In this document: one piece after another, positions 4,920 to 40,896 of the stretch
Layout of the letters: each line of letters begins with the position of its first letter
Position numbering within the stretch: position 1 is the first letter of the stretch
Source: Methanobrevibacter sp.
GTDB taxonomy: Archaea; Methanobacteriota; Methanobacteria; Methanobacteriales; Methanobacteriaceae
DNA length: 43,233 nucleotides
NCBI GenBank assembly: GCA_017652345.1
Contig: JAGCBE010000476.1
Location: forward strand, 1-43,233
Reading direction: 5' to 3'
The notes under the pieces: model-generated
Databases searched by the model: none
The model's input: only the letters and a program-made list of their open reading frames with translations
What the model was told of the DNA's origin: nothing
Program-made: the position numbers and the translations under genes

Positions 4920-5239
4920 AAAAGTCATATTATTTAGAAGGAGGTTTATATTTTGATACTACAACTCAAACTATATATGAACCAAAGTCATATTGTGAGA
5001 TATGTGGCAGAAGAACATTGTTAACTGTGCACCATTTTTTAAAACAACAAAAATGTTTAAGAGATTTGGCATCGAAAAGAATTATAACGCCTTCAACTTG
5101 GACAAAAGAGTTTATTAATAAATTTCAAAAACTTTTTACACTATGTTTGCAATGTCACTACGATGTAGATTTTTTAAGTGATGAAGCGTTTAAGGAAAAA
5201 TATAAAATAGATAGAAGTATATTTGTTTATTCAAAATAA
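4916..5239 (+). CDS. HNH-like zinc protein
   Basis: The protein has a CEICG pair near residue 24, the HH of LLTVHHFLKQQ near 41, and a CLQCHYDVD pair near 81. This arrangement of two CxxC knuckles with central histidines is that of small phage HNH endonucleases, which nick or cut DNA during packaging or recombination. The classic N and final H positions are not certain. The start overlaps the NinB-like gene by 4 bp. It closes the operon and is followed by a new promoter. Confidence 0.6.
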   Translation: MKKSYYLEGGLYFDTTTQTIYEPKSYCEICGRRTLLTVHHFLKQQKCLRDLASKRIITPSTWTKEFINKFQKLFTLCLQCHYDVDFLSDEAFKEKYKIDRSIFVYSK

Positions 5240-5243
5240 TGTA

Positions 5244-5271
5244 TTTACAAATGAAGTTTTTATAATATAAT
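5244..5271 (+). promoter_or_regulatory. Sigma70-type promoter before the nucleotide-metabolism operon
   Basis: A TTTACA box (5244-5249) and a TATAAT box (5266-5271) are 16 bp apart. The -35 box lies within GTATTTACAAAT, the same 12-base core as the promoters at 2094, 7726 and 40836, but the upstream TGTAACAAA half of the repeat is absent. It probably drives 5296-7686. Confidence 0.8.
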
Positions 5272-5295
5272 AGTTTTAGAAAGTGAGGAATTAAT

Positions 5296-5787
5296 ATGAA
5301 AAGAAAAACAAAAGATGAATTTGTATTTTTGGTAAAATTTTATTGGAACAATCAAGATTGCAGGCCAAAAGATATAGTAAAAAAGGCACAAGATATTGAT
5401 TTGTTAAGAAATAAGTTTTCTAATACAGTAATTTATAACTATTTTTTTTATTTTAAGCGTTATTTGAAAGATGGTTATTTATGTAAAAGTATTCAAAAAT
5501 CTTTAAAAGAAGCATTTGAAATTGTATTAAAAGATCTTCGCAAAAAAGCAGTTCAATCTATTCATGAAATAAGTCTAGAAGAAAATATAACACAAATTAA
5601 TAATAAAATCGAAAAAGAGTTAAATGATACAAGAGAAAAATGTTTAAATATTATAGAAAAAAATAAAGAAAAAATTAAACAATTAGAAAAAATAAATGAC
5701 GAAGTTGAAGAATTTTTAGAATGTCGCGAAGAAGAGTTAGAACATATGCGGCACAATATGATTCAAGAGTTATTGCATAAAATATAA
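5296..5787 (+). CDS. Hypothetical protein with long C-terminal coiled coil (163 aa)
   Basis: The first half is a basic, aromatic-rich helical domain (IYNYFFYFKRYLKDG) that could be a DNA-binding fold. From about residue 90 to the end the protein is a charged coiled coil. It starts after an AGTGAGGAATTAAT leader and is the first gene of the operon carrying the nucleotide enzymes. I do not recognise it. A regulator or DNA-binding role is possible but unsupported. Confidence 0.7.
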   Translation: MKRKTKDEFVFLVKFYWNNQDCRPKDIVKKAQDIDLLRNKFSNTVIYNYFFYFKRYLKDGYLCKSIQKSLKEAFEIVLKDLRKKAVQSIHEISLEENITQINNKIEKELNDTREKCLNIIEKNKEKIKQLEKINDEVEEFLECREEELEHMRHNMIQELLHKI

Positions 5788-5797
5788 GGAGAATATC

Positions 5798-6196
5798 ATG
5801 AAATTAATTGAAGATGTTTATGAGTTTAATGAAAAGATTATTGGTTCAAAACAACCAAGTGTTCCCACAACATTAAGTAGAGAAAGATTGCTATTTGCTC
5901 TAACTGCTATGTACGAAGAACTACATGAGTTTACATTGGCAAGTAATCAAGATAACGTAGCAGAACAAGTTGATGCTATGATTGATTTAATATATTTTGC
6001 GATCGGAAGATGTTATGAAATAGGTGTTTCAAAAGAAGCATTTATAGCTTGCTGGAATTTGGTTCAACAAAAAAATATGGCAAAAAAGCGTGGCACCAAA
6101 AATCGTGGAACTGAACAAGATGCTTGCAAACCAGAAGATTGGGTTGCACCTAATTTAGAAGAGGTACTTAATCAAGGAGAATATATTAATGGATGA
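5798..6196 (+). CDS. MazG-like / phosphoribosyl-ATP pyrophosphohydrolase-fold NTP-PPase
   Basis: All-alpha NTP pyrophosphohydrolases cut (d)NTPs to (d)NMP and pyrophosphate. Here the Mg-binding motif is visible as E40-E41-x-x-E44 and then E56-Q-V-D59 with D63. The C-terminal segment around W86 and KNMAKKRGTKNRG is typical of phage members. Its length (132) fits. It is followed by a DUF1599-like protein, a dCMP hydroxymethylase-like enzyme and dCMP deaminase, so a dCTP-to-dCMP role is the natural guess, as in phages that replace cytosine. Substrate specificity cannot be read from the sequence. Confidence 0.8.
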   Translation: MKLIEDVYEFNEKIIGSKQPSVPTTLSRERLLFALTAMYEELHEFTLASNQDNVAEQVDAMIDLIYFAIGRCYEIGVSKEAFIACWNLVQQKNMAKKRGTKNRGTEQDACKPEDWVAPNLEEVLNQGEYING

Positions 6197-6479
6197 ATTG
6201 TATGAAAAAATATCTCCTGTATTTAGAGAAGTAACAGAGATTGCAATAAAAAAATCGCAAGATTATAATAATGGACAAGACATCCCAGAATCAAGAGCGA
6301 TATATTTTCCATTTGGATTAATATCATATGCTCAAATGATACATACTAAAAGTCAGCGATTAAATAGTTTGGCAAAACAAACAAAAAGTCCTAATAATGA
6401 ATCAATAAGAGATACATTATTAGATTTAATTAACTATGCTTGCTTTGCTGTAGAAGCTATTGATAAAGGAGAGATATAA
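6189..6479 (+). CDS. DUF1599 / Nmad1-like nucleotide-associated protein
   Basis: The protein has the signature SQDYNNGQD, then YFPFGLISYAQMIHTKSQRL and a C-terminal DTLLDLINYACFAVEA helix. This matches the small helical DUF1599 family, which I recall as nucleotide modification associated domain 1. The family often sits beside thymidylate synthase or hydroxymethylase genes in phages. It overlaps the MazG-like gene by 8 bp and the next gene by one base. Its biochemical role is unknown; a pyrophosphohydrolase-like or accessory role is possible. Confidence 0.7.
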   Translation: MDELYEKISPVFREVTEIAIKKSQDYNNGQDIPESRAIYFPFGLISYAQMIHTKSQRLNSLAKQTKSPNNESIRDTLLDLINYACFAVEAIDKGEI

Positions 6480-7276
6480 TGAATGGAGTTTGGTTAGAAA
6501 CATTGCAAAAAATAATAGATTCTGATTTGGTTAGTAAACCAAGAGGTTTCGAAATAAAAGAAATTCTTAATGACCAAATGAAGATTGATATGCGTACACC
6601 AATTTTATCAGTAATTGAAAGAAATCTTGGATATAAATTTATGGCAAGAGAAAGTTGGTGGATAATATCTGGGAAAAACGACGTAGAATCAATCAAGGAT
6701 TATTCAAAAGCAATAAGTAAATTCTCAGATGATGGCTATCACTTTAATGGAGCATATGGTCCACGATTGGTTGACCAGTGGCACTATATTGTTGATTCAT
6801 TAATAAGCGATGTAGATACTAGGCAGGCAGTAGCGACGATATGGAGACCAAATCCTCGTGCTTCTAAAGATATACCTTGCACAATATCTGTTCAATGGTT
6901 AATTAGAAATAATAAAATATATTGTATTGATAATATGAGAAGCTCAGATATTTGGTTGGGCGTGCCATACGATGTTTTTAATTTTACAATGTTAACAGGA
7001 TATTTAATGTTATTATTGCGAGAAAGAGGATTAGATAATTTAGAGCTTGGACATTTATATCTTAATGCAGGGTCAAGACATTTATATGAAAATAACTTCG
7101 AATCAGCAATTGATGTTTTAAATAATAAAGTATGTAAAGTATATCAATATTTTAACCCATATAAATTTGATGGTCCATTAGAATTAAAACATTATTTGAA
7201 GGCATTATCAGAGAAAGATTCGGTAGAATTAAATAAATATAAAAGTGAATTTGGGAGAGATATTTTATGCGCTTAA
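6479..7276 (+). CDS. Thymidylate synthase-fold enzyme, predicted dCMP hydroxymethylase
   Basis: The enzyme transfers a one-carbon unit from methylenetetrahydrofolate to C5 of a pyrimidine deoxynucleotide. The catalytic cysteine is C134 in KDIPCTISVQW. The phosphate and base contacts are visible as R154-S-S-D157, and H201-L-Y203 in SRHLYENN. In thymidylate synthases the block after RSSD reads LGxPxN, and that Asn selects uracil. Here it reads LGVPYD, so position 165 is Asp, the change known in T4-type dCMP hydroxymethylases. I therefore predict dCMP as substrate and 5-hydroxymethyl-dCMP as product. The length (265) is normal. The gene is tightly coupled to dCMP deaminase downstream. True thymidylate synthase activity is the alternative. 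Confidence 0.8.
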   Translation: MNGVWLETLQKIIDSDLVSKPRGFEIKEILNDQMKIDMRTPILSVIERNLGYKFMARESWWIISGKNDVESIKDYSKAISKFSDDGYHFNGAYGPRLVDQWHYIVDSLISDVDTRQAVATIWRPNPRASKDIPCTISVQWLIRNNKIYCIDNMRSSDIWLGVPYDVFNFTMLTGYLMLLLRERGLDNLELGHLYLNAGSRHLYENNFESAIDVLNNKVCKVYQYFNPYKFDGPLELKHYLKALSEKDSVELNKYKSEFGRDILCA

Positions 7277-7686
7277 GTTCAGATGAATATTTTATTGAAT
7301 TAACCAAGATAGTGGCAAAACGCTCTCCTTGTTTATCTAGACAAGTAGGATGTGTATTAGTAGATAAAAACAATATAGTTTTAAGTACTGGTTATAATGG
7401 TCCCCCTAGAGGTCAAGAGCATTGCTTAAAATGTATAAGAAAAAATACTAATAATATACACTTATGTAGAGCAATACACGCTGAGCAAAACGCTTTGTTA
7501 TTTTGCCCTGATATTAATAAAATAAATAAAGCATATGTAACATATAGCCCATGTAATACTTGTACGAAGCTATTATTAAACACATCCTGCAAAGAAATTA
7601 TTTATATTGAAGATTATAGAGAAAATGAGTTTATATTTAATCAATATAATTTAAATTCAATAATAGTTAGGAAATATGATAAATAA
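7267..7686 (+). CDS. dCMP deaminase (ComE/cytidine deaminase superfamily)
   Basis: The enzyme converts dCMP to dUMP, the precursor of dTMP. Zinc and catalytic residues are clear: HAEQNALL holds the zinc ligand His and the proton-shuttle Glu, and SPCNTCTKLL holds the two zinc-binding Cys. Additional Cys and His in EHCLKCIRKN and the substrate loop GYNGPPRG are typical of phage and bacterial dCMP deaminases. The length (139) fits. It overlaps the upstream hydroxymethylase-like gene by 10 bp, so the two enzymes that would compete for dCMP are co-translated. Confidence 0.92.
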   Translation: MRLSSDEYFIELTKIVAKRSPCLSRQVGCVLVDKNNIVLSTGYNGPPRGQEHCLKCIRKNTNNIHLCRAIHAEQNALLFCPDINKINKAYVTYSPCNTCTKLLLNTSCKEIIYIEDYRENEFIFNQYNLNSIIVRKYDK

Positions 7687-7701
7687 TGTATTTACAAATA
7701 T

Positions 7702-7735
7702 GTAACAAATTGTAACAAAAGGTATTTACAAATAA
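7702..7735 (+). repeat. Early promoter upstream element, copy B
   Basis: This copy reads TGTAACAAATTGTAAC, then A-rich bases and GTATTTACAAATAA, closely matching copies at 2071 and 40813. A further GTATTTACAAAT half-copy lies just upstream at 7689-7700. The local array of TTTACAAAT and TGTAACAAA words gives a run of near-palindromic half sites. Confidence 0.65.
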
Positions 7736-7753
7736 AAAAATATGTAGTATAAT
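7726..7753 (+). promoter_or_regulatory. Sigma70-type promoter before the small-gene region
   Basis: TTTACA (7726-7731) and TATAAT (7748-7753) are 16 bp apart. A second TTTACA at 7692-7697 has no good -10 partner. The promoter lies 32 bases before the small gene at 7785 and probably drives the whole run of small genes through 13350. Confidence 0.82.
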
Positions 7754-7784
7754 AGAATTGTAAATAAACGAAAGGCGGTAAAAA

Positions 7785-7958
7785 ATGAAAAAATATGTAG
7801 TAACAGTAGATGTAACAATGAGTGGAGACATAGAAATAGAAGCTCCAAATGAAAAAGCAGCAGCAAAAATGGTACAAAGTATGTATTTCTCAGCAAGCGA
7901 TTTAAGAAATTTTCATGAATTAAATAAAGATATATATGAAGTTGAAGAAGTTAAATAG
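7785..7958 (+). CDS. DpnD/PcfM-like small protein (57 aa)
   Basis: The frame is fixed by a very strong site (AAAGGCGG, 6 bases before ATG). The protein starts MKKYVVTVDVTMSGDIEIEA, then NEKAAAKMVQ, and resembles the DpnD/PcfM family of small beta-alpha proteins found in phages and plasmids, whose role is unknown. The stop codon's G is the first base of the GC-rich hairpin at 7958-7980. It is the first gene of the accessory operon. Confidence 0.65.
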   Translation: MKKYVVTVDVTMSGDIEIEAPNEKAAAKMVQSMYFSASDLRNFHELNKDIYEVEEVK

Positions 7959-8006
7959 GTACCCATTACCGCCGGGTACCTCCCTCTTAGAGGGTTATAA
8001 TGGCGG
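7958..8006 (+). ncRNA. GC-rich structured RNA element, possible pseudoknot
   Basis: This segment stands out as GC-rich in a very AT-rich genome. It has a perfect 7-bp hairpin (GGTACCC at 7958-7964 with GGGTACC at 7974-7980) and a 5-bp hairpin (CCCTC at 7982-7986 with GAGGG at 7990-7994). The loop of the first hairpin ends in CCGCC (7969-7973), which can pair with GGCGG at 8002-8006, giving a nested pseudoknot. There is no U tract, so it is not a simple terminator. It sits between two small genes, directly before the ribosome site of the second, and may control translation or protect the mRNA. The structure is inferred by eye. Confidence 0.5.
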
Positions 8007-8025
8007 GAAGTGAAAGGAAAACAAT

Positions 8026-8178
8026 ATGAAATTAGAAGAATATTATAAATATTGTTTAAAAAGTATTAAAAATATAATAAAAGACGAACCAAAAAATAAT
8101 TATCAATATGAAACATTATTTATGATGATAGAAGATTATATTAAACAAGCAAAATTTGCTAAAGAAGGAACATTATAA
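8026..8178 (+). CDS. Small hypothetical protein (50 aa)
   Basis: The ATG follows GTGAAAGGAAAACAAT. The product is a short helical protein beginning MKLEEYYKYCLKSIKNIIKD. No family is recognised. It is translated from the mRNA just downstream of the structured element at 7958-8006, so its expression is the most likely target of that structure. Confidence 0.6.
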   Translation: MKLEEYYKYCLKSIKNIIKDEPKNNYQYETLFMMIEDYIKQAKFAKEGTL

Positions 8179-8200
8179 AATAAAGGAAAGGCGGTAAATT

Positions 8201-8488
8201 ATGGCAAGAAACAATCACGTAAAAACAATGAGAAATTATATTGAAAAAATGATGTTTAAAAATCAATGCGTAATAACTCATAAAACTATCTTAAAAGAAA
8301 CAAATGCAAATTGTTGTTATTCAGTTTTGAAAAGTTTGAGAAATTATTATGATATAGAAGAAAAGTGGATAGAAAAAGAAAATTGTCGTTTTAAAGAATA
8401 TACATTCAAAAGAAAGGAAGTGAAACAAAATGCCCAAGGTGTCGATATTTGGCGAGAATGCGAAGCTCATCAGCTTTCGCTTATATAG
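8201..8488 (+). CDS. Hypothetical protein (95 aa), possible winged helix
   Basis: The start has the strong AAAGGCGG site also used at 7785 and 40897. The first 60 residues are basic and helical (HVKTMRNYIEKMMFKNQ, then LKSLRNYYDIEEKWIE), which could form a small winged-helix DNA-binding unit. No definite match is recognised. The last 59 bases overlap another small frame that begins at 8430. Confidence 0.6.
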   Translation: MARNNHVKTMRNYIEKMMFKNQCVITHKTILKETNANCCYSVLKSLRNYYDIEEKWIEKENCRFKEYTFKRKEVKQNAQGVDIWRECEAHQLSLI

Positions 8489-8582
8489 TTGGGAAAAAGA
8501 GTTGGTACGAGAGTTTATAAAAAAAATAAGAGTTAAAAAACTTAAAGAAATTATGAGGAAAAGAAAATGCAAAAAACTTTAG
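8430..8582 (+). CDS. Small basic protein overlapping its neighbours (50 aa)
   Basis: An open frame with an AGAAAGGAAG site 11 bases upstream encodes a strongly basic peptide (MPKVSIFGENAKLISFRLYS, then Lys/Arg-rich). It overlaps the previous gene by 59 bases and the next by 16. Its codon use looks coding-like and it fills a gap that would otherwise be 78 bases of noncoding sequence in a tightly packed operon. It could be spurious. Confidence 0.45.
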   Translation: MPKVSIFGENAKLISFRLYSWEKELVREFIKKIRVKKLKEIMRKRKCKKL

Positions 8583-8812
8583 AACAAGAATTTGAAGAAC
8601 AAGTTTTTATACATAAATCATCTATAGTATTAGGTTGTCTTTTGAAATTTTATAAAGATGAGCAAGAAACAGGAGTAAGTATTCCAGAATTTTTAGATAA
8701 ATCTCCTGAAGAAAAAGCACAAGAACATTATTTCAAATTGCTGGCAAACAATAACAAACTCAATGAAGCATATAATGGTTGTTGGGAAAAATATGGAGCA
8801 TTACTTCCATGA
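8567..8812 (+). CDS. Hypothetical protein (81 aa)
   Basis: The ATG follows ATGAGGAAAAGAAA. The product is acidic and helical with a KSPEEKAQEHYFKLLANNNK segment and no Cys pairs except isolated residues. No function is evident. Its TGA overlaps the next ATG. Confidence 0.65.
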   Translation: MQKTLEQEFEEQVFIHKSSIVLGCLLKFYKDEQETGVSIPEFLDKSPEEKAQEHYFKLLANNNKLNEAYNGCWEKYGALLP

Positions 8813-8997
8813 CACGAGAGATGAATAAGCCTGATTGGTTAATGACAAAACATTATTGTTTGATATGTAGGCAAAACACAATACCTAAATGTGCAAATTG
8901 TTTATTTAATAAAAGCCTTCCTGAAAATAGAAAGCTAGACGATTGGATAAAGCCGTTTTTTGATAATTGTTGCAGAATGGAGAAGGTGGGAAGATGA
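8809..8997 (+). CDS. Small zinc-ribbon-like protein (62 aa)
   Basis: I place the start at the ATG of the ATGA overlap at 8809, with GGAG about 10 bases upstream; ATG at 8821 is possible. The core has CLICRQNTIPKCANCLF, two closely spaced CxxC pairs that would bind one zinc ion, and a later CC pair. Small zinc ribbons of this type often bind nucleic acid or proteins. No named family is recognised. Confidence 0.6.
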   Translation: MTREMNKPDWLMTKHYCLICRQNTIPKCANCLFNKSLPENRKLDDWIKPFFDNCCRMEKVGR

Positions 8998-9215
8998 AAG
9001 TATTGAAAATAATTGAAGCAATTCCCGCAAAAGAATATGGCTTATATTATCCTTTTCCCGAATTAAAGAATAATGAATACTATGCACCAAAGCTTAAAAA
9101 AGGTGGGTTTATTCGACCTACAAATGGAGAACCTTATTTATCAAAAGACAAAGGATTTTTTATGAATTTTGATAAAAAAACGGTCGATGTGGCAATAGTA
9201 GAATTAGAGGTTTAA
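8994..9215 (+). CDS. Hypothetical protein (73 aa)
   Basis: The ATG at 8994 overlaps the previous stop and follows GGAGAAGGTGGG. The protein begins MKVLKIIEAIPAKEYGLYYP and ends in a beta-rich segment TVDVAIVELEV. It resembles small phage proteins of unknown role found in early regions. I do not assign a function. Confidence 0.6.
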   Translation: MKVLKIIEAIPAKEYGLYYPFPELKNNEYYAPKLKKGGFIRPTNGEPYLSKDKGFFMNFDKKTVDVAIVELEV

Positions 9216-9218
9216 GCA

Positions 9219-9362
9219 ATGTGGCAAACAGTAGATTATAAAGGAAATACAGTTAAGTGGTACGAAGCGGAATTGATTGAGAAAATCAAAGCAACATGTA
9301 TAAAACGACCATATCAAGCATTAGACAAGATTTTAGAACTGATACAGGAGAATGAAAAGTGA
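9219..9362 (+). CDS. Small hypothetical protein (47 aa)
   Basis: It has a GAGG site 8 bases before ATG and begins MWQTVDYKGNTVKWYEAELI. The C-terminus is helical. It overlaps the next gene by 4 bases through a GTGA junction. Function unknown. Confidence 0.55.
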   Translation: MWQTVDYKGNTVKWYEAELIEKIKATCIKRPYQALDKILELIQENEK

Positions 9363-9484
9363 AAACAGAAGAAGAAATAAAAGACAAAATAATCGAGTTA
9401 TATAAAAAACGACAAACAGTCGGTTACTTAAAGAATACTGAATTTGGATTTTTAGAAGCTCTTGAATGGGTATTGGAGGAGTAA
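9359..9484 (+). CDS. Small hypothetical protein, GTG start (41 aa)
   Basis: The GTG at 9359 follows GGAG by 8 bases and makes a GTGA overlap with the previous stop. The peptide is helical and ends LEALEWVLEE. The tight coupling on both sides supports real translation despite the small size. Function unknown. Confidence 0.55.
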   Translation: MKTEEEIKDKIIELYKKRQTVGYLKNTEFGFLEALEWVLEE

Positions 9485-9486
9485 AA

Positions 9487-9906
9487 ATGGAAGATAGATT
9501 TAAGTTTAGAGTATTTCTTAAATATAATCAGATTATGTACGACATAGATAGTTATTGTTTTTTACAAGGACTTAATAAATGTGTTTTTCATTTTACAAAT
9601 GGTGGTCAAAAAACATTAAAGAACGATGATTTTATTCTTATGCAATGCACAAGACGAAAAGATAAGAACGGCAAACTGATTTATGAGGAGGATATAGTAA
9701 GGCTTAAGGCTAAAAATGGTATGACCTTTGATTATGCTGTAAAATTTAAAAATTACTGTTTTATTCTTGAATATATTAACGGCAAATTAAAAGGTACAAA
9801 AGCAAGAGATTTTGCGAAACAATATGCTCAACCACAGAAAATGTATGAACACGGTTATATGGTAATTGGCAACATATACGAGAACCCTGAACTATTGGAG
9901 GACTAA
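9487..9906 (+). CDS. YopX-family protein
   Basis: The ATG at 9487 follows TTGGAGGAG by 5 bases and is preferred over the upstream in-frame ATG. The core CTRRKDKNGKLIYEEDIVRL at about residues 56-75 and the C-terminal YMVIGNIYENPELLED are hallmarks of the YopX family (named from Bacillus phage SPbeta). YopX proteins are common in early regions of Gram-positive phages and their role is unknown. Length (139) fits. Confidence 0.85.
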   Translation: MEDRFKFRVFLKYNQIMYDIDSYCFLQGLNKCVFHFTNGGQKTLKNDDFILMQCTRRKDKNGKLIYEEDIVRLKAKNGMTFDYAVKFKNYCFILEYINGKLKGTKARDFAKQYAQPQKMYEHGYMVIGNIYENPELLED

Positions 9907-9908
9907 GA

Positions 9909-10061
9909 ATGATAGCTGAAGGTTTAGCAATGATTGGAATTATATACTTAGCATTTTTTATGGGGCTTGGTATTATCGCAATTATTATTAGCGGACTAAG
10001 AATTTTGTTAGAACTAATAAAAGAGAAAATTATTATTGGAGGACTAAATGAACGAAGTTAA
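9909..10061 (+). CDS. Single-pass membrane protein (50 aa)
   Basis: The peptide is dominated by one long hydrophobic segment (residues 3-33, Ile/Leu/Gly-rich), followed by a charged helix and a short tail that overlaps the next gene by 14 bases. The ATG follows the YopX stop directly. A membrane-acting early role, such as superinfection exclusion or a small holin-like peptide, is conceivable, but only the membrane location is supported. Confidence 0.55.
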   Translation: MIAEGLAMIGIIYLAFFMGLGIIAIIISGLRILLELIKEKIIIGGLNERS

Positions 10062-10299
10062 TATTGATGAAATTCGATATTTTATGTGGAGTGCTATTAA
10101 TAGCATATTGAATACATGCGGGAATAGTTATTCAAATAGTTGGTGTGAACACTTATTGTCTATTGCTAAAAAGTATAATGCTTATACGGGAAGAACAATA
10201 GGTAGTATTCAAGAACTAAAAGACCACATAGACGATAATCAAAAATTAAATGAAGAAATGATTGCTCTTGGTGATAAATTATTTAATAAATTTTTATAG
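10048..10299 (+). CDS. Hypothetical protein (83 aa)
   Basis: The start has a strong TTGGAGG site 5 bases upstream. The product begins MNEVNIDEIRYFMWSAINSI and is helical, with two Cys but no CxxC. Another gene with the same MNEV opening follows. Unknown function. Confidence 0.65.
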   Translation: MNEVNIDEIRYFMWSAINSILNTCGNSYSNSWCEHLLSIAKKYNAYTGRTIGSIQELKDHIDDNQKLNEEMIALGDKLFNKFL

Positions 10300-10311
10300 T
10301 GAGGTGACTAA

Positions 10312-10677
10312 ATGAACGAAGTAGAAAAGATGTATGAGAATGCAGGGATATTGAAAGAATGCTTATCACCTTGCTTAATAAATAAAACTTGGAGAAAATA
10401 TCACGATTGTCCTAATTGTAACAAAAGAAAAAATTACCCACCATTCACCGCAGAGAAACAGCTAGAGTTGATTAAGTTGCTTTCTTATTATTACAACATA
10501 ACTATTTCAAAGAACTTTGAAAATGATTATACTTTCCAATGCGAAGGTGATGATGTAAGGCGATATGTTTTTACAAGTGGTCAAGGCTTCGCAGAGCAAA
10601 TAGCGTCATTTATAAATATGTGCTATGAGCTTTTGCCAGAAGAAGAACGTAAGCAGATAAAGGAGATATTGGAATGA
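10312..10677 (+). CDS. Cys-containing hypothetical protein (121 aa)
   Basis: The N-terminal 40 residues hold CLSPCLINK and HDCPNCNKRK, which could bind zinc or an iron-sulfur cluster. The rest is mixed helix and strand. It begins after GTGAGGTGACTAA and overlaps the next gene by 4 bp. No family is recognised. Confidence 0.65.
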   Translation: MNEVEKMYENAGILKECLSPCLINKTWRKYHDCPNCNKRKNYPPFTAEKQLELIKLLSYYYNITISKNFENDYTFQCEGDDVRRYVFTSGQGFAEQIASFINMCYELLPEEERKQIKEILE

Positions 10678-11006
10678 CTAAACTAGAAATAAAAAATACA
10701 AAATATTGGGGTGGAGGTGTTCGCAGAACATTAGAAGTAATTCCTTTAAAAATAATTGGTGATATAAACAATGTGCCTATTGATAAAACTTATCAAAATA
10801 ATGGGTACAGAAGAATGGAAGATGGCACTTGGAAACATATTGAATGTATGTTGAAACTTCAAATAGAAGAACGTGGTTTTATTACACAAAGAACACATAA
10901 TTTGTATAAATCTTCTAAGAAAGGTTATTATTCCGTAGTTTGTCAACATAAAGTGTATTTTACTGATGAAGAAATAGAAAGTTTAGAATCGGAGGTAAGG
11001 GAATGA
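10674..11006 (+). CDS. Hypothetical protein (110 aa)
   Basis: The ATGA overlap with the previous stop and a GGAGATATTGGA site support this start. The product is rich in beta-strand patterns (RRTLEVIPLKIIGDI, KGYYSVVCQHKVYFTDEEI) and ends with an acidic helix. I do not recognise it. Confidence 0.65.
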   Translation: MTKLEIKNTKYWGGGVRRTLEVIPLKIIGDINNVPIDKTYQNNGYRRMEDGTWKHIECMLKLQIEERGFITQRTHNLYKSSKKGYYSVVCQHKVYFTDEEIESLESEVRE

Positions 11007-11284
11007 CACGTGAACGTGACCGCATTCAAGAGAATGCTAATAGATATATAGTAAAGAATTGTCCTGCATTTGTTTTAATGAGAACAGCAACAAGTGGAAC
11101 ATATTTTAATATGTGTGGAAATGCAAAAGGTCATATAAAATGTGCAGACTGTACCGACTGCGTTATAAAGCGAGTGATAGATAAGTGTAAAAGTACAAGT
11201 GATAGGTGGTTATATAATGCGCACGTTGAAAGTTTTGCAAAACAAATACTTGATATGTTTGATATAGAGGGGATAGGGGAATGA
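11003..11284 (+). CDS. Cys-rich hypothetical protein (93 aa)
   Basis: Six Cys occur, with CADCTDCVIKR as the central cluster, suggesting metal binding. It starts by an ATGA overlap after GGAGGTAAGG. It is followed by a secreted protein gene, also by overlap. Function unknown. Confidence 0.65.
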   Translation: MTRERDRIQENANRYIVKNCPAFVLMRTATSGTYFNMCGNAKGHIKCADCTDCVIKRVIDKCKSTSDRWLYNAHVESFAKQILDMFDIEGIGE

Positions 11285-11514
11285 AGAAAATTGTTGTATT
11301 ATTAATATTTTTATTTTGTATTACACCTGTTCGAGCACAAGAAAAGGTGATGGTTAACCCTTTTACTTATGTTTGCGATTTGGTAACAATTAAATTTCAA
11401 TCAATGACAAGTAAAATTCAGACCACAAAAGTAACAACAGAAGAAGGTACATATAGAATTTTTACTATAAGTAACTGCGAAGGTGTAAGCATTACAGCCG
11501 TAAAGATAAAATAA
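11281..11514 (+). CDS. Small exported protein with signal peptide (77 aa)
   Basis: Residues 1-19 are a textbook signal peptide: MKK, a hydrophobic core IVVLLIFLFCI, and a VRA cleavage site before QEK. The mature part is about 58 residues, beta-rich, with two Cys that could form a disulfide. Early-expressed phage exported proteins sometimes block superinfection or alter the envelope, but this is inference. It overlaps both neighbours. Confidence 0.65.
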   Translation: MKKIVVLLIFLFCITPVRAQEKVMVNPFTYVCDLVTIKFQSMTSKIQTTKVTTEEGTYRIFTISNCEGVSITAVKIK

Positions 11515-11528
11515 TGAGGAGTATTAAA

Positions 11529-11723
11529 GTGAGGGAAGCAATAATAGTAGCAATGATATTTGTTTTAGTAGGAATGTTTTCAGGTAGTATAATTGCTTGT
11601 TCTATATATGATGTTTATATGATAAATGCTTATTGTAGTACACATTGTAAACTAACAAGCGAATATTTGCAATGCAAAAAACAACCACTATATACACTTG
11701 TAAGGAAGGAGATAAATAAATGA
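11529..11723 (+). CDS. Membrane protein with Cys-rich tail, GTG start (64 aa)
   Basis: I choose GTG at 11529 because GAGGAG lies 8 bases upstream; the ATG at 11514 has no ribosome site. A single transmembrane segment (about residues 4-24, IIVAMIFVLVGMFSGSIIAC) is followed by a short domain with Cys residues (CSTHCKLTSEYLQCKK). It follows the exported protein gene and may act with it at the cell surface. Confidence 0.6.
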   Translation: MREAIIVAMIFVLVGMFSGSIIACSIYDVYMINAYCSTHCKLTSEYLQCKKQPLYTLVRKEINK

Positions 11724-11950
11724 CAGAGTATATGCCAAACTTGCCCGAGTGGGTATTAAAAGAAAAACCACATATAGCTAATTGTAAATATTGTGGAGCA
11801 GAAGCAATTTTGCGTGGTAAACCTGATTGGGAATGGTGGACGCACGAAATAAGATGTTCAAAATATTGCAAAGAAAGTAAACCTATGGATAGGTACGACA
11901 TAAAAGAACTTATTGAGAAATGGAACGAGTTAAATGAGGTAGAAGTATGA
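11720..11950 (+). CDS. Lar-like zinc protein (76 aa)
   Basis: The pattern CKYCGAEAILRG, then WWTHEIRCSKYCKES and DIKELIEKWNEL resembles the Lar family: two Cys pairs with a central Trp-rich strand and a C-terminal helix ending in EKWN. Lar of Rac prophage eases type I restriction. Family resemblance is moderate and anti-restriction activity here is inferred only. The ATG follows AGGAAGGAG closely. Confidence 0.5.
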   Translation: MTEYMPNLPEWVLKEKPHIANCKYCGAEAILRGKPDWEWWTHEIRCSKYCKESKPMDRYDIKELIEKWNELNEVEV

Positions 11951-12186
11951 CAGAAGAACAATGTGACTTTTATAAAGAATGTGAATGTGATTGTGACGGT
12001 GTTATAGAAAAAACAGAATGTTGCGAATGTTACAGACTACATAATTTTATAAAAATGCTTATAGGTGCAATAAATCAAGGTACAAAAAAGTTTGAGTATA
12101 AAGAAGCTCCGTTTTTACACGAAGCAATGGCAAAGTATTTTACATTTTGCACAGGATTAAACATTGATGAAGTGGAGGATTTATGA
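11947..12186 (+). CDS. Cys-rich acidic protein (79 aa)
   Basis: Nine Cys are packed mainly in the N-terminal half (ECECDCDGVIEKTECCECY), a likely metal-binding knot. The C-terminal half is helical. It starts by an ATGA overlap. No family is recognised. Confidence 0.6.
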   Translation: MTEEQCDFYKECECDCDGVIEKTECCECYRLHNFIKMLIGAINQGTKKFEYKEAPFLHEAMAKYFTFCTGLNIDEVEDL

Positions 12187-12788
12187 CAGAAGAAATAATA
12201 ATTGACGGTGTAAATGTAGCAGAGTGTGAATTTTATACTCCCACTTGTGTAAGTATGCATATTTGGGGAGAAACTACAAAGACAAACAAATGTGAGGAAA
12301 ATCATAACTGCTATTACAAGCAACTCAAACGCTTAGAGCAAGAACGTGACGAATTGAAAAAAGCTTGTGATAAATGTAAGTTGTTTGACATTGAAAAAAC
12401 AAATAGAGATTTACTTGAGCGGATTGATAAATTAGAGCATGAAAACAAAGAATTAAAAACTTGGTTAGAATCTAAAGAGAAGCAATTCAAACACTTAATT
12501 GAATATAACCAAAATAAAAAAGACCAAATTAAAACACTAAAATTTATGCTTTTTGATGAAAAAGAAATCCCAAAAGATAAATTTACTATGATGTATAGAA
12601 TTGCACAAAATGAAAGGCGAACAAGGTCGCATAGGGATTTATGCACCAATATAACAAAAAAATACCGCTCTAAATTGGAAGAAATAAGAGAGATAGCAGA
12701 TAAATGCAAAGAATGTTTAAATGAAGATGATAATTGTGGATGTGATTATTTAAGAATAGTACGCAAAATCAATGAGGTGTTAAGTTGA
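12183..12788 (+). CDS. Coiled-coil protein with Cys clusters at both ends (201 aa)
   Basis: A Cys-containing head (residues 14-43) is followed by a long coiled coil (about 45-110), then a basic segment and a C-terminal CKECLNEDDNCGCDY cluster. The opening is similar in style to the preceding small proteins. It could be a structural or DNA-binding accessory, but nothing specific is recognised. It overlaps the preceding gene and the next. Confidence 0.65.
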   Translation: MTEEIIIDGVNVAECEFYTPTCVSMHIWGETTKTNKCEENHNCYYKQLKRLEQERDELKKACDKCKLFDIEKTNRDLLERIDKLEHENKELKTWLESKEKQFKHLIEYNQNKKDQIKTLKFMLFDEKEIPKDKFTMMYRIAQNERRTRSHRDLCTNITKKYRSKLEEIREIADKCKECLNEDDNCGCDYLRIVRKINEVLS

Positions 12789-13156
12789 GTAATTGGCTAA
12801 AAATAAAAGACGTGGCAACTATATTAAATATTAGCAGCAGCAATTTACATACTCTTATTTGTAAAGAAGAATTTAAAGATTTAGTGATTTTTGACAAACC
12901 ATTTCGTATTAATTTTAATATAAAATTTATAAAACTTATTAATAAATATTTGCATAATAAAGAAAAAGTAGTCACAAGTATATCTAATCCTAAAGAATGG
13001 ACTCAATCATCAATTTATTGTTATAAAATAGGATGTAATTGCCAAAGGTGTGATATATATAAAATTATGGAAACCAAATGTCAAATGAAAATGGTAGTAT
13101 TAGAATTAGTTAGATTATATGGACCACCAAAAATAGAAAGGAATGATATATTATGA
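12785..13156 (+). CDS. Helix-turn-helix regulator-like protein, TTG start (123 aa)
   Basis: The TTG at 12785 overlaps the previous TGA and follows GAGGTG. The N-terminus LKIKDVATILNISSSNLHTL is a MerR/excisionase-type helix-turn-helix. The C-terminal part has YCYKIGCNCQRCDIYK and CQMKMVVLELVRLYGPP, a cysteine motif I associate with conserved uncharacterised proteins found upstream of terminase genes in Firmicutes-type phages. A late-gene regulator is a reasonable guess, not proven. Confidence 0.6.
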   Translation: MSNWLKIKDVATILNISSSNLHTLICKEEFKDLVIFDKPFRINFNIKFIKLINKYLHNKEKVVTSISNPKEWTQSSIYCYKIGCNCQRCDIYKIMETKCQMKMVVLELVRLYGPPKIERNDIL

Positions 13157-13350
13157 GTTATTGTGAATATTTTAAAGCAGCTATTAGAAATTTTTATAAT
13201 ACAAAAAAGCTTACACAAAAAGTAAAATCAGAAGCAAAATTATTAATAAAGCAATTTGAAATATCTGAAGCATATGATGAATTTGAAAATGAAGATGAAT
13301 ATAAAAACTTAAAAATTGAAATAAATAAAATTAGAGAATTAATTTTTTAA
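13153..13350 (+). CDS. Small hypothetical helical protein (65 aa)
   Basis: The ATG overlaps the previous stop and follows AGAAAGGA by several bases. The product is a charged helical peptide (KAAIRNFYNTKKLTQKVKSE). No function is evident. It precedes the glycosyltransferase gene by 11 bases. Confidence 0.6.
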   Translation: MSYCEYFKAAIRNFYNTKKLTQKVKSEAKLLIKQFEISEAYDEFENEDEYKNLKIEINKIRELIF

Positions 13351-13361
13351 AGGAGGTTAAT

Positions 13362-14147
13362 GTGAACAAGTATGAACAAGTAAAGGTCTTTATTCCTACT
13401 AAAGGAAGATTAGACAATGAAAAAACCTATAATATATTAGTAGAATTAGGTTTACAGCCTATGTTGGTTATTGAGCCGCAAGAAGTTGAAAAAGCAGCAA
13501 GTTTAGGATATCGATTTATTGTATTACCAGCAAATAATATGGGAATAACGTACTCAAGAAACTATATATTGAAAGAAGCTAAAGATATGGGGTTTGAATA
13601 TATTTGTATGGTGGATGATGACATCTCCCAGATGGGATACATTGTAGAAGGAAAAAGAATTAAAGATAATAAGGCATTTTTAAATGCGTTAGATAAATTT
13701 TTAGAGTTTAAAACCTGTGGAACAATGCAATATAACCAATTCGCTTGGTGTCAACCTAAACCAATAGTATATAATAGAGGATTAGAAGTTGTTTGGTTTT
13801 TATATATGCCGCAAATACAAAACGTAATTATTGAAGAAGACACAATTGAAGATAGAGATTTTAGCTTAGATATAATAATAAATCACAATGTTGAGACATT
13901 TAGATTAAATCATTTATATTTTAATGTACCATCTATAGGTGCTAATCCAGGCGGGATAGATTCACAAACTAGAGGAGAGAAACAATCTTATTGGGCAAGA
14001 AAAATGCAAAACAAATGGGGTGATAACATTATTTCAATAATACAAAAAACAAATGGATGGGATAATATTAAAATAAATTGGAGATATGTAGACAAATTAA
14101 TTAAAGAAAAAAGAGGCTGTTTACAAAATGATAAAAATGGTATATAA
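13362..14147 (+). CDS. TAGT/GREB1-like glycosyltransferase, predicted DNA-modifying
   Basis: The protein has a GT-A fold layout. VFIPTKGR opens the nucleotide-sugar site (residues 9-16), VIEPQEVEK follows (37-44), then NNMGITYSRNYIL (58-70) and the metal-binding VDDD (84-87) after a hydrophobic strand. Later blocks EDRDFSLDI (163-171) and NVPSIGANPGG fit the TET/JBP-associated glycosyltransferase (TAGT) group related to GREB1, which is proposed to glycosylate hydroxymethylated bases in phage DNA. GTG start with AAAGGAGG 5 bases upstream. No TET oxygenase is present, but a dCMP hydroxymethylase-like gene at 6479 could supply the substrate. The acceptor and sugar are not readable from sequence; a protein or cell-surface acceptor is the alternative. 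Confidence 0.72.
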   Translation: MNKYEQVKVFIPTKGRLDNEKTYNILVELGLQPMLVIEPQEVEKAASLGYRFIVLPANNMGITYSRNYILKEAKDMGFEYICMVDDDISQMGYIVEGKRIKDNKAFLNALDKFLEFKTCGTMQYNQFAWCQPKPIVYNRGLEVVWFLYMPQIQNVIIEEDTIEDRDFSLDIIINHNVETFRLNHLYFNVPSIGANPGGIDSQTRGEKQSYWARKMQNKWGDNIISIIQKTNGWDNIKINWRYVDKLIKEKRGCLQNDKNGI

Positions 14148-40799: not shown

Positions 40800-40812
40800 A
40801 AGTATAATTTTT

Positions 40813-40845
40813 GTAACAAAATGTAAATAATGTATTTACAAATAA
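40813..40845 (+). repeat. Early promoter upstream element, copy C
   Basis: This copy reads TGTAACAAAATGTAAAT, then AATGTATTTACAAATAA, matching the elements at 2071 and 7702. It lies between the divergent RusA and 40897 genes, so a factor bound here could affect both. Confidence 0.65.
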
Positions 40846-40864
40846 AATTATTTGTGGTATAATG
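40836..40864 (+). promoter_or_regulatory. Sigma70-type promoter for the 40897-41901 operon
   Basis: TTTACA (40836-40841) and TATAAT (40859-40864) are 17 bp apart with TGG before the -10 box. A strong AAAGGCGG ribosome site follows. The layout closely copies the promoter at 7726. Confidence 0.85.
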
Positions 40865-40896
40865 ATATTGTGAATTAATGGAAAGGCGGTAAAAAA

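Follow-up and report, generated by a model that had tools for sequence, protein, structure and literature searches.

The modification locus

The DNA analysed here, called the window throughout, is the forward strand of positions 1 to 43,233 of contig JAGCBE010000476.1 in a Methanobrevibacter sp. assembly (GCA_017652345.1). Tail sheath, baseplate and hub genes could be identified in it, in agreement with an earlier note on this DNA, which had described a 43-kb myovirus. The subject of this text is a putative cytosine modification system of that phage, consisting of a run of four enzyme genes (a MazG-like nucleoside triphosphate (NTP) pyrophosphohydrolase, a DUF1599 protein, an enzyme of the thymidylate synthase (TS) fold and a dCMP deaminase) and of a TAGT-family glycosyltransferase gene, which is part of a later run of small genes (Table 1). 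All five open reading frames (ORFs) named by the earlier note are present, and each lies above the cut-off of its Pfam family. Our best explanation of the whole, which we regard as fairly probable, is that glycosylated 5-hydroxymethylcytosine replaces cytosine in the phage DNA, with DUF1599 at the step for which related operons use a deoxynucleoside monophosphate (dNMP) kinase. New here is DUF1599 as occupant of the kinase slot in D177 operons, i.e. those whose TS-fold enzyme carries Asp at the position of Asn177 in E. coli ThyA.

The four-enzyme run is flanked by two copies of a promoter-like repeat (GTATTTACAAAT...TATAAT-type), which occurs four times in the window (further copies at 2071-2123 and 40812-40895); the four copies probably are co-regulated promoters. 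In the 40812 copy, the spacer appears partly palindromic. An EExxE...ExxD-like motif is visible in the MazG-like protein, which we propose as a dCTP hydrolase.

As the earlier note had stated, the phage seems to possess neither its own polymerase nor a dNMP kinase: four phage polymerases used as queries gave no match in the window, no DNA polymerase was found among 40 window proteins scanned with PHROGs or among 36 further ORFs (longest 272 amino acids), and the kinase-profile search of the window gave no match. Walker A motifs are confined to ORFs 247 (helicase), 25847 (sheath) and 37251. One of the 36 further ORFs matches the Lar-like restriction alleviation family phrog_599 weakly (E 5.6e-4); it is probably the one at 11720-11950, an assignment based on its zinc-ribbon look.

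Table 1. Features of the putative modification locus in the window
Feature	Position	Strand	Evidence
Modification operon, probable TTTACA/TATAAT-type promoter	5234..5290	+	promoter-like repeat, one of four copies
163-amino-acid protein, first gene of the operon	5296..5787	+	76% identity to the sister phage counterpart
MazG-like NTP pyrophosphohydrolase	5798..6196	+	PF01503, 48 bits (cut-off 21.3); phrog_18404
DUF1599/Nmad1 protein, 96 amino acids	6189..6479	+	PF07659, 33.1 bits (cut-off 25)
TS-fold enzyme, probable dCMP hydroxymethylase	6479..7276	+	PF00303, 74.4 bits (cut-off 24.3)
dCMP deaminase	7267..7686	+	PF00383, 70.4 bits (cut-off 25); phrog_174
Next promoter-like copy, closing the four-enzyme run	7700..7785	+	shared repeat
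TAGT-family GT-A glycosyltransferase	13362..14147	+	PF20691, 62.6 bits (cut-off 27.5)

A TS-fold enzyme of the hydroxymethylase type

In an alignment with T4 gp42, E. coli ThyA and SPO1 gp29, Asp165 of the window enzyme (the hydroxymethylase-type residue that the earlier note had recognised) falls on T4 Asp179 and ThyA Asn177, Cys134 on T4 Cys148 and Asp131 on T4 Asp145; Thr135 corresponds to the Thr that follows Cys148 in T4 gp42, where ThyA has His147. Passages of PMC6400193 name Asp179 as the dCMP determinant of T4 gp42 and describe an Asp conserved in hydroxymethylases three residues before the Cys, whose exchange (D145N) yields no 5-hydroxymethyl-dCMP (hm-dCMP). According to passages of the MetaGPA study, no positions are more strongly associated with modified-cytosine contigs than 177 and 147 (PMC8670742). 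An ordinary thymidylate synthase is ruled out by Asp instead of Asn at position 177, and all 119 TS-fold ORFs with a profile E < 1e-30, the window enzyme included, carry Asp there. The closest match among solved structures is the CMP 5-hydroxymethylase MilA. We see good evidence in these comparisons that the predicted product of the enzyme is hm-dCMP.

Among 81 viral loci found by similarity to the hydroxymethylase, a dNMP kinase lies within 3 kb in 74, and a deaminase (77/81) and MazG (64/81) occur anywhere in the fetched stretch; the recurrence of the three genes across these loci argues against a chance gene order.

DUF1599 in the position of the kinase

Beside TS-fold enzymes with Asp177, kinase and DUF1599 exclude each other. 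The count started from 150 TS rows, each a stop-to-stop ORF no shorter than 170 amino acids with a profile E <= 1e-8, of which 141 have Asp and nine Asn at position 177; ten of the 141 had less than 1.2 kb of upstream sequence and were dropped. Phage AXL1 is not part of this count. In the 131 loci left, a kinase-profile match lies within 3 kb in 96 and DUF1599 is present in 32, the two never occurring together; three loci lack both (L003, Achromobacter phage JWX and T4, whose gp1 kinase is located in another part of the T4 genome). Put differently, a kinase-profile match within 3 kb was obtained in 0/32 D177 loci with DUF1599 versus 96/99 without it. Removal of sequences at least 90% identical leaves 71 loci with kinase, 27 with DUF1599, none with both and three with neither (n=101; Fisher p 1.6e-21, kinship and locus selection ignored), and an alternative tally of 138 rows, which keeps contig ends and counts the TS of locus L155 twice, gives 94, 31, 0 and 13, respectively. 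The L155 gene (~10252-11020) is split in two overlapping frames, owing either to a broken gene or to a sequencing error. It should be noted that kinases were detected with two home-made profiles, so that members of other kinase families may have been missed. Short P-loop-like motifs are rare at DUF1599 loci: one was found in 3/31 (L154, L175, L179), in each case over 7 kb away from the TS, and a stricter one in 4/38 (L179, L183, L187, L190), none adjoining a D177 TS. Short matches in the deaminase frame of phages DLP4 and AXL1 and, for AXL1, also in the frame of a tail gene, look like chance.

All DUF1599-linked TS rows (34 before the upstream filter) carry Asp177, and they fall into three or more residue classes (D/T/D, D/P/N and ThyA-like D/H). 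On a tree of 119 enzymes the kinase/DUF1599 label changes four times, three of these changes being forced by well-supported branches, and several independent exchanges are therefore likely.

Such exchanges can be seen in place. The sister phage of the window phage, IMGVR_UViG_3300032038_000194 (two parts of whose sequence are our loci L001 and L004), is mostly colinear with the window where fetched, with ~90-99% amino acid identity in nearly all head genes compared; the small genes at 8.8-13.3 kb are in part far less similar. The host may be a Faecalibacillus-like gut bacterium, to judge by the label of a protein (P0004) with 92% identity. Between MazG and hydroxymethylase the sister phage encodes a 178-amino-acid kinase with a P-loop, which belongs to the thymidylate-kinase type (L001 9468-10004; PF02223 above cut-off, phrog_761), and in the window DUF1599 takes its place. 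The flanking DNA is ~83% identical, and the similarity breaks at 6165 and 6465 in the window and at 9462 and 9983 in L001. The DUF1599/Nmad1-like gene of the earlier note is present in the operon; a mere accessory role for it does not hold, since it fills the dNMP kinase position. In a second swap, with cassette flanks 90% identical, DUF1599 of L174 (2869-3270) stands against a kinase of L141 (9061-9972; phrog_761, no Pfam match), with breaks at 2877/9069 and 3276/9982. A further swap concerns fusion partners: in Roseobacter phage RDJL1 and Rhodobacter phage RcSimone-Hastad, MazG is fused to a phrog_139 dNMP kinase domain, and in DLP4, AAT-1, PaMx28, V45iii and AXL1 to DUF1599; both fusion types adjoin an Asp177 TS, mostly checked as having Asn three residues before the Cys (position -3) and Pro147.

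Some side observations belong here. MazG plus phrog_139 kinase-domain fusions, annotated as Cof hydrolase and MazG-like, are located at L194 4950-5996 and L195 4651-5853. In phage JWX (L193 5387-5872), a gene with a weak DUF6378 match, below cut-off, occupies the kinase slot beside a D177 TS and is possibly a third occupant of it. Comparison of window 5798-7276 with L001 9095-10798 gave identities of 78% for MazG and 80% for the hydroxymethylase, as against 94% for the deaminase and ~90-99% for most head genes; because the former two are less alike, the MazG-hydroxymethylase part of the cassette may have been exchanged by recombination.

Restriction phenotypes of related phages

Phages with DUF1599 instead of a kinase nevertheless possess restriction-resistant DNA: 36/36 enzymes fail to cut DLP4 DNA, and AXL1 DNA is cut by 5/31; PaMx28 DNA is likewise resistant, as cited in the DLP4 paper. 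No kinase-profile match was obtained in the whole AXL1 genome, in which the MazG::DUF1599 fusion is present, in the whole AAT-1 genome, in bases 10000-55108 of PaMx28 or in bases 740-63945 of the 63945 of DLP4. One potential counterexample, the 65-amino-acid 'deoxynucleoside monophosphate kinase' annotated in DLP4, was rejected as too short; two others, AAT-1 gp63 and PaMx28 gp68, annotated as hydrolases, gave no kinase-profile match. A passage of PMC9206674 describes a nearly identical gene order in AXL1, DLP4, Bosa and Xp12, and it is on this statement that the gene content of Xp12 rests here. Among phages of the kinase type, AXL3 carries a cassette of MazG, kinase, a hydroxymethylase 44% identical to that of the window and deaminase; its DNA is cut by 2/37 enzymes, both with A/T-only sites, according to a passage of PMC7504290.

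What DUF1599 might do

The evidence leans slightly towards DUF1599 supplying or enabling the phosphorylation of modified dCMP, because kinase and DUF1599 are exclusive and swapped in place in D177 operons, and because the DNA of DLP4 and AXL1 resists restriction in genomes with no recognisable dNMP kinase. That DUF1599 itself would catalyse this step is a considerably more tentative idea. A P-loop kinase can be rejected, since DUF1599 has neither a Walker A motif nor a kinase-profile match, and it would have to be a nucleotide kinase of a new kind, a P-loop-less, MazG-like helical protein that phosphorylates 5-substituted dCMP, which is a doubtful proposition at present; the reaction might perhaps be a pyrophosphate transfer from ATP (hm-dCMP + ATP -> hm-dCTP + AMP). 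A bacteriophage-induced 5-methyl-dCMP kinase activity was reportedly described in 1982, and is said to have come from Xp12; DUF1599 is a candidate for the protein behind it.

A PDB sequence search with the DUF1599 profile gave no matches, and comparison of DUF1599 with MazG by hhalign aligned 18 columns at a probability of 2.8%; we take AF_0060 to be MazG-like. In the passages considered from the open-licence literature, DUF1599, or nucleotide modification associated domain, is merely named.

The glycosyltransferase

The assignment of the glycosyltransferase to the TAGT family by the earlier note agrees with its Pfam match. Its structure model (pLDDT 91.2) has a GT-A fold, and the protein carries an Asp-rich (DxD-type) motif; in an alignment of 26 sequences, D85-D86-D87, D164 and D166 are invariant. 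The best structural matches (E 2.7e-7 downwards) are to GT-A enzymes and to related ones that use nucleotide sugars, including collagen hydroxylysine galactosyltransferase, TarP and other polymer transferases. A PDB sequence search with the protein gave no matches.

In 33 of 49 viral TAGT loci, an oxygenase of the TET/JBP type lies within 1.5 kb, start to start, an annotated example being Nonlabens phage P12024L; this count is a lower bound because one query was used, and the remaining 16 are loci without a TET match by that query. The P12024L oxygenase, as a single query, gave no match in the window at E 1e-3. The window protein is a TAGT by sequence, yet its system is not coupled to TET, as far as one query can tell, and its source of hydroxymethyl groups would be the enzyme that acts on nucleotides. 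A similar pairing occurs in the sister phage, which has hydroxymethylase and TAGT on one contig, the TAGT further along, and in L179, L181 and L182, where DUF1599, a T4-like D177 TS, deaminase and TAGT stand close together in a different operon type (the L179 TAGT is confirmed by Pfam; L181 and L182 are near copies, 99.8% identical to each other). For four hydroxymethylase-TAGT pairs of protein clusters, the longest contigs are equal in size (14412, 22171, 11450 and 10588 bases), which suggests, without proving it, that the genes share contigs.

TAGT-like genes also lie within ~3 kb of an SPO1-type N177 enzyme in L131 (991-1809 and 3614-4705) and L132 (9998-10792 and 11834-12871), possibly as hydroxymethyluracil-glycosylating pairs. 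Since TAGTs are found near TET, D177 and SPO1-type N177 enzymes, they tend to follow sources of 5-hydroxymethylpyrimidine of whatever kind. Lactobacillus phage ATCCB (L196 5474-9038) carries a row of a kinase-like gene, a D177 TS, an annotated beta-glucosyltransferase and a UDP-galactopyranose mutase, possibly for a galactofuranose-type modification of hydroxymethylcytosine.

Proposed pathway and alternatives

The following route is proposed. MazG would strip dCTP to dCMP, part of which the deaminase would send to dUMP (the usual diversion by dCMP deaminases), and the TS-fold enzyme, whose residues are those of a hydroxymethylase, would convert dCMP to hm-dCMP. The modified monophosphate would then be phosphorylated up to the triphosphate; the first step would fall to the P-loop dNMP kinase in most related operons, and in the window phage DUF1599 would supply or enable it, as exclusivity and in-place swaps suggest. 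The host polymerase would incorporate hm-dCTP, as may be supposed because no phage polymerase was found, and the TAGT would transfer a sugar onto the hydroxymethyl group in the DNA. Judged from sequence, it is very probable that the phage DNA carries modified cytosine, and probable that the glycosyltransferase acts on the DNA base. The core of the earlier note, nucleotide-level hydroxymethylation of dCMP followed by glycosylation of DNA, is well supported at this level, because of the diagnostic residues, the conserved operons, the operon type of L179, L181 and L182 and the restriction resistance of relatives. Its description as simply a compact T4 scheme has to be given up: glycosylation would fall to a GT-A TAGT, and the searches revealed no phage polymerase and no P-loop dNMP kinase.

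Several points weigh against this explanation. The exclusivity loci were picked by similarity to two proteins and are phylogenetically non-independent, and there is little support for the MazG-like four-helix fold in the DUF1599 model, for which Foldseek gave nothing at E <= 0.001. D177 operons are not the only setting of DUF1599, which means that it does not serve modified dCMP alone, and elsewhere the exclusivity rule breaks down: in a crAss-like phage (L187 6361-6801) it stands beside a polynucleotide kinase with ThyX nearby, in a Sphingobacterium chromosome (L183 1480-2028) as a tandem copy beside an ORF that looks DoxX-like by eye, and it appears in an algal virus list. In AXL3, a methyltransferase gene adjoins MazG and could add to the resistance, the cause of which is not isolated for this reason. 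Among the 81 loci selected by hydroxymethylase similarity, not one shows a TAGT within the stretch that was fetched (0/81), although the sister contig has one further along. Finally, host CMP kinase might phosphorylate hm-dCMP unaided.

The strongest alternative is possible, though we doubt it: the pathway works, host CMP kinase phosphorylates hm-dCMP, and DUF1599 is a second, MazG-type pool cleaner, such as a hydrolase of dCDP or dCTP, which lowers unmodified dCTP so that the weak host route wins. Unlikely is the alternative that the TS-fold enzyme and the kinase-slot gene produce modified nucleotides, with 5-hydroxymethylcytosine or some other derivative as the final base and with the TAGT glycosylating something other than DNA, for example a cell-surface polymer. 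The location of the TAGT in a separate gene run 5.7 kb downstream, its structural similarity to TarP and other polymer transferases and the above 0/81 would fit; the TAGTs found near three kinds of hydroxymethylpyrimidine makers, i.e. TET (33/49), D177 enzymes (window, sister phage, L179, L181, L182) and the SPO1-type N177 enzymes of L131 and L132, speak for DNA as the target. A decayed pathway, in which loss of the kinase leaves hm-dCMP as a dead end and the virion DNA contains ordinary cytosine, would agree with the failure to find a recognisable dNMP kinase in the window, but is improbable, given intact reading frames and catalytic residues and the restriction resistance of DLP4 and AXL1. 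Least probable of all is that the TS-fold enzyme methylates dCMP, so that the base would be 5-methylcytosine, as in Xp12. The Xp12-related phages do share the order of the operon and DUF1599 as partner, but at position -3 the window enzyme carries the Asp typical of hydroxymethylases, and at 147 it carries Thr, whereas DLP4, AAT-1 and PaMx28 have Asn/Pro and a phage dihydrofolate reductase (DHFR) close by, fitting reductive methylation, and no DHFR family turned up among the window proteins in general family scans.

Glycosylated 5-hydroxymethylcytosine with DUF1599 at the kinase step remains our preferred explanation. It amounts to a strong sequence-based case for this base in a small gut myophage that would need the host polymerase, and it includes a specific, testable hypothesis on the function of DUF1599, namely that it replaces the dNMP kinase in cytosine-modification operons.

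Comparison with known systems

With the glucosyl-hydroxymethylcytosine pathway of T4 (gp56 dCTPase, gp42, gp1 dNMP kinase, alpha/beta-glucosyltransferases), the window shares the order of the chemical steps and the signature residues of the hydroxymethylase, and presumably also the dCMP deaminase. It differs in having a MazG-type protein for gp56, DUF1599 for the gp1 kinase and a GT-A TAGT as glycosyltransferase, in a genome of 43 kb in which no phage DNA polymerase was found. MazG-kinase-hydroxymethylase-deaminase cassettes occur in L001, AXL3, PW916 and MW202510, as well as in other IMG/VR loci; the four named have a window-like gene order and a hydroxymethylase of the same subfamily (43-80% identity). 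Such cassettes hold a P-loop dNMP kinase where the window has DUF1599, and, the sister phage excepted, a TAGT was not seen in their fetched stretches.

The annotated-phage collection yielded a single relative of the glycosyltransferase, that of the TET-TAGT phage P12024L (30.5% identity). There, a TET-type oxygenase would add the hydroxymethyl group at the level of DNA, and no such oxygenase was detected in the window with the query described; here, the TAGT would be coupled to nucleotide-level hydroxymethylation instead. The Xp12-related phages (DLP4, AXL1, AAT-1, PaMx28) resemble the window in DUF1599, D177 TS, deaminase and the lack of a recognisable dNMP kinase. They differ in that DUF1599 is fused to MazG, in their own DNA polymerase and in a TS subfamily with Asn(-3)/Pro147, which together with the phage DHFR is probably methylating; in DLP4 and AXL1 (and PaMx28, by the citation mentioned), the DNA is restriction-resistant despite DUF1599 in place of the kinase.

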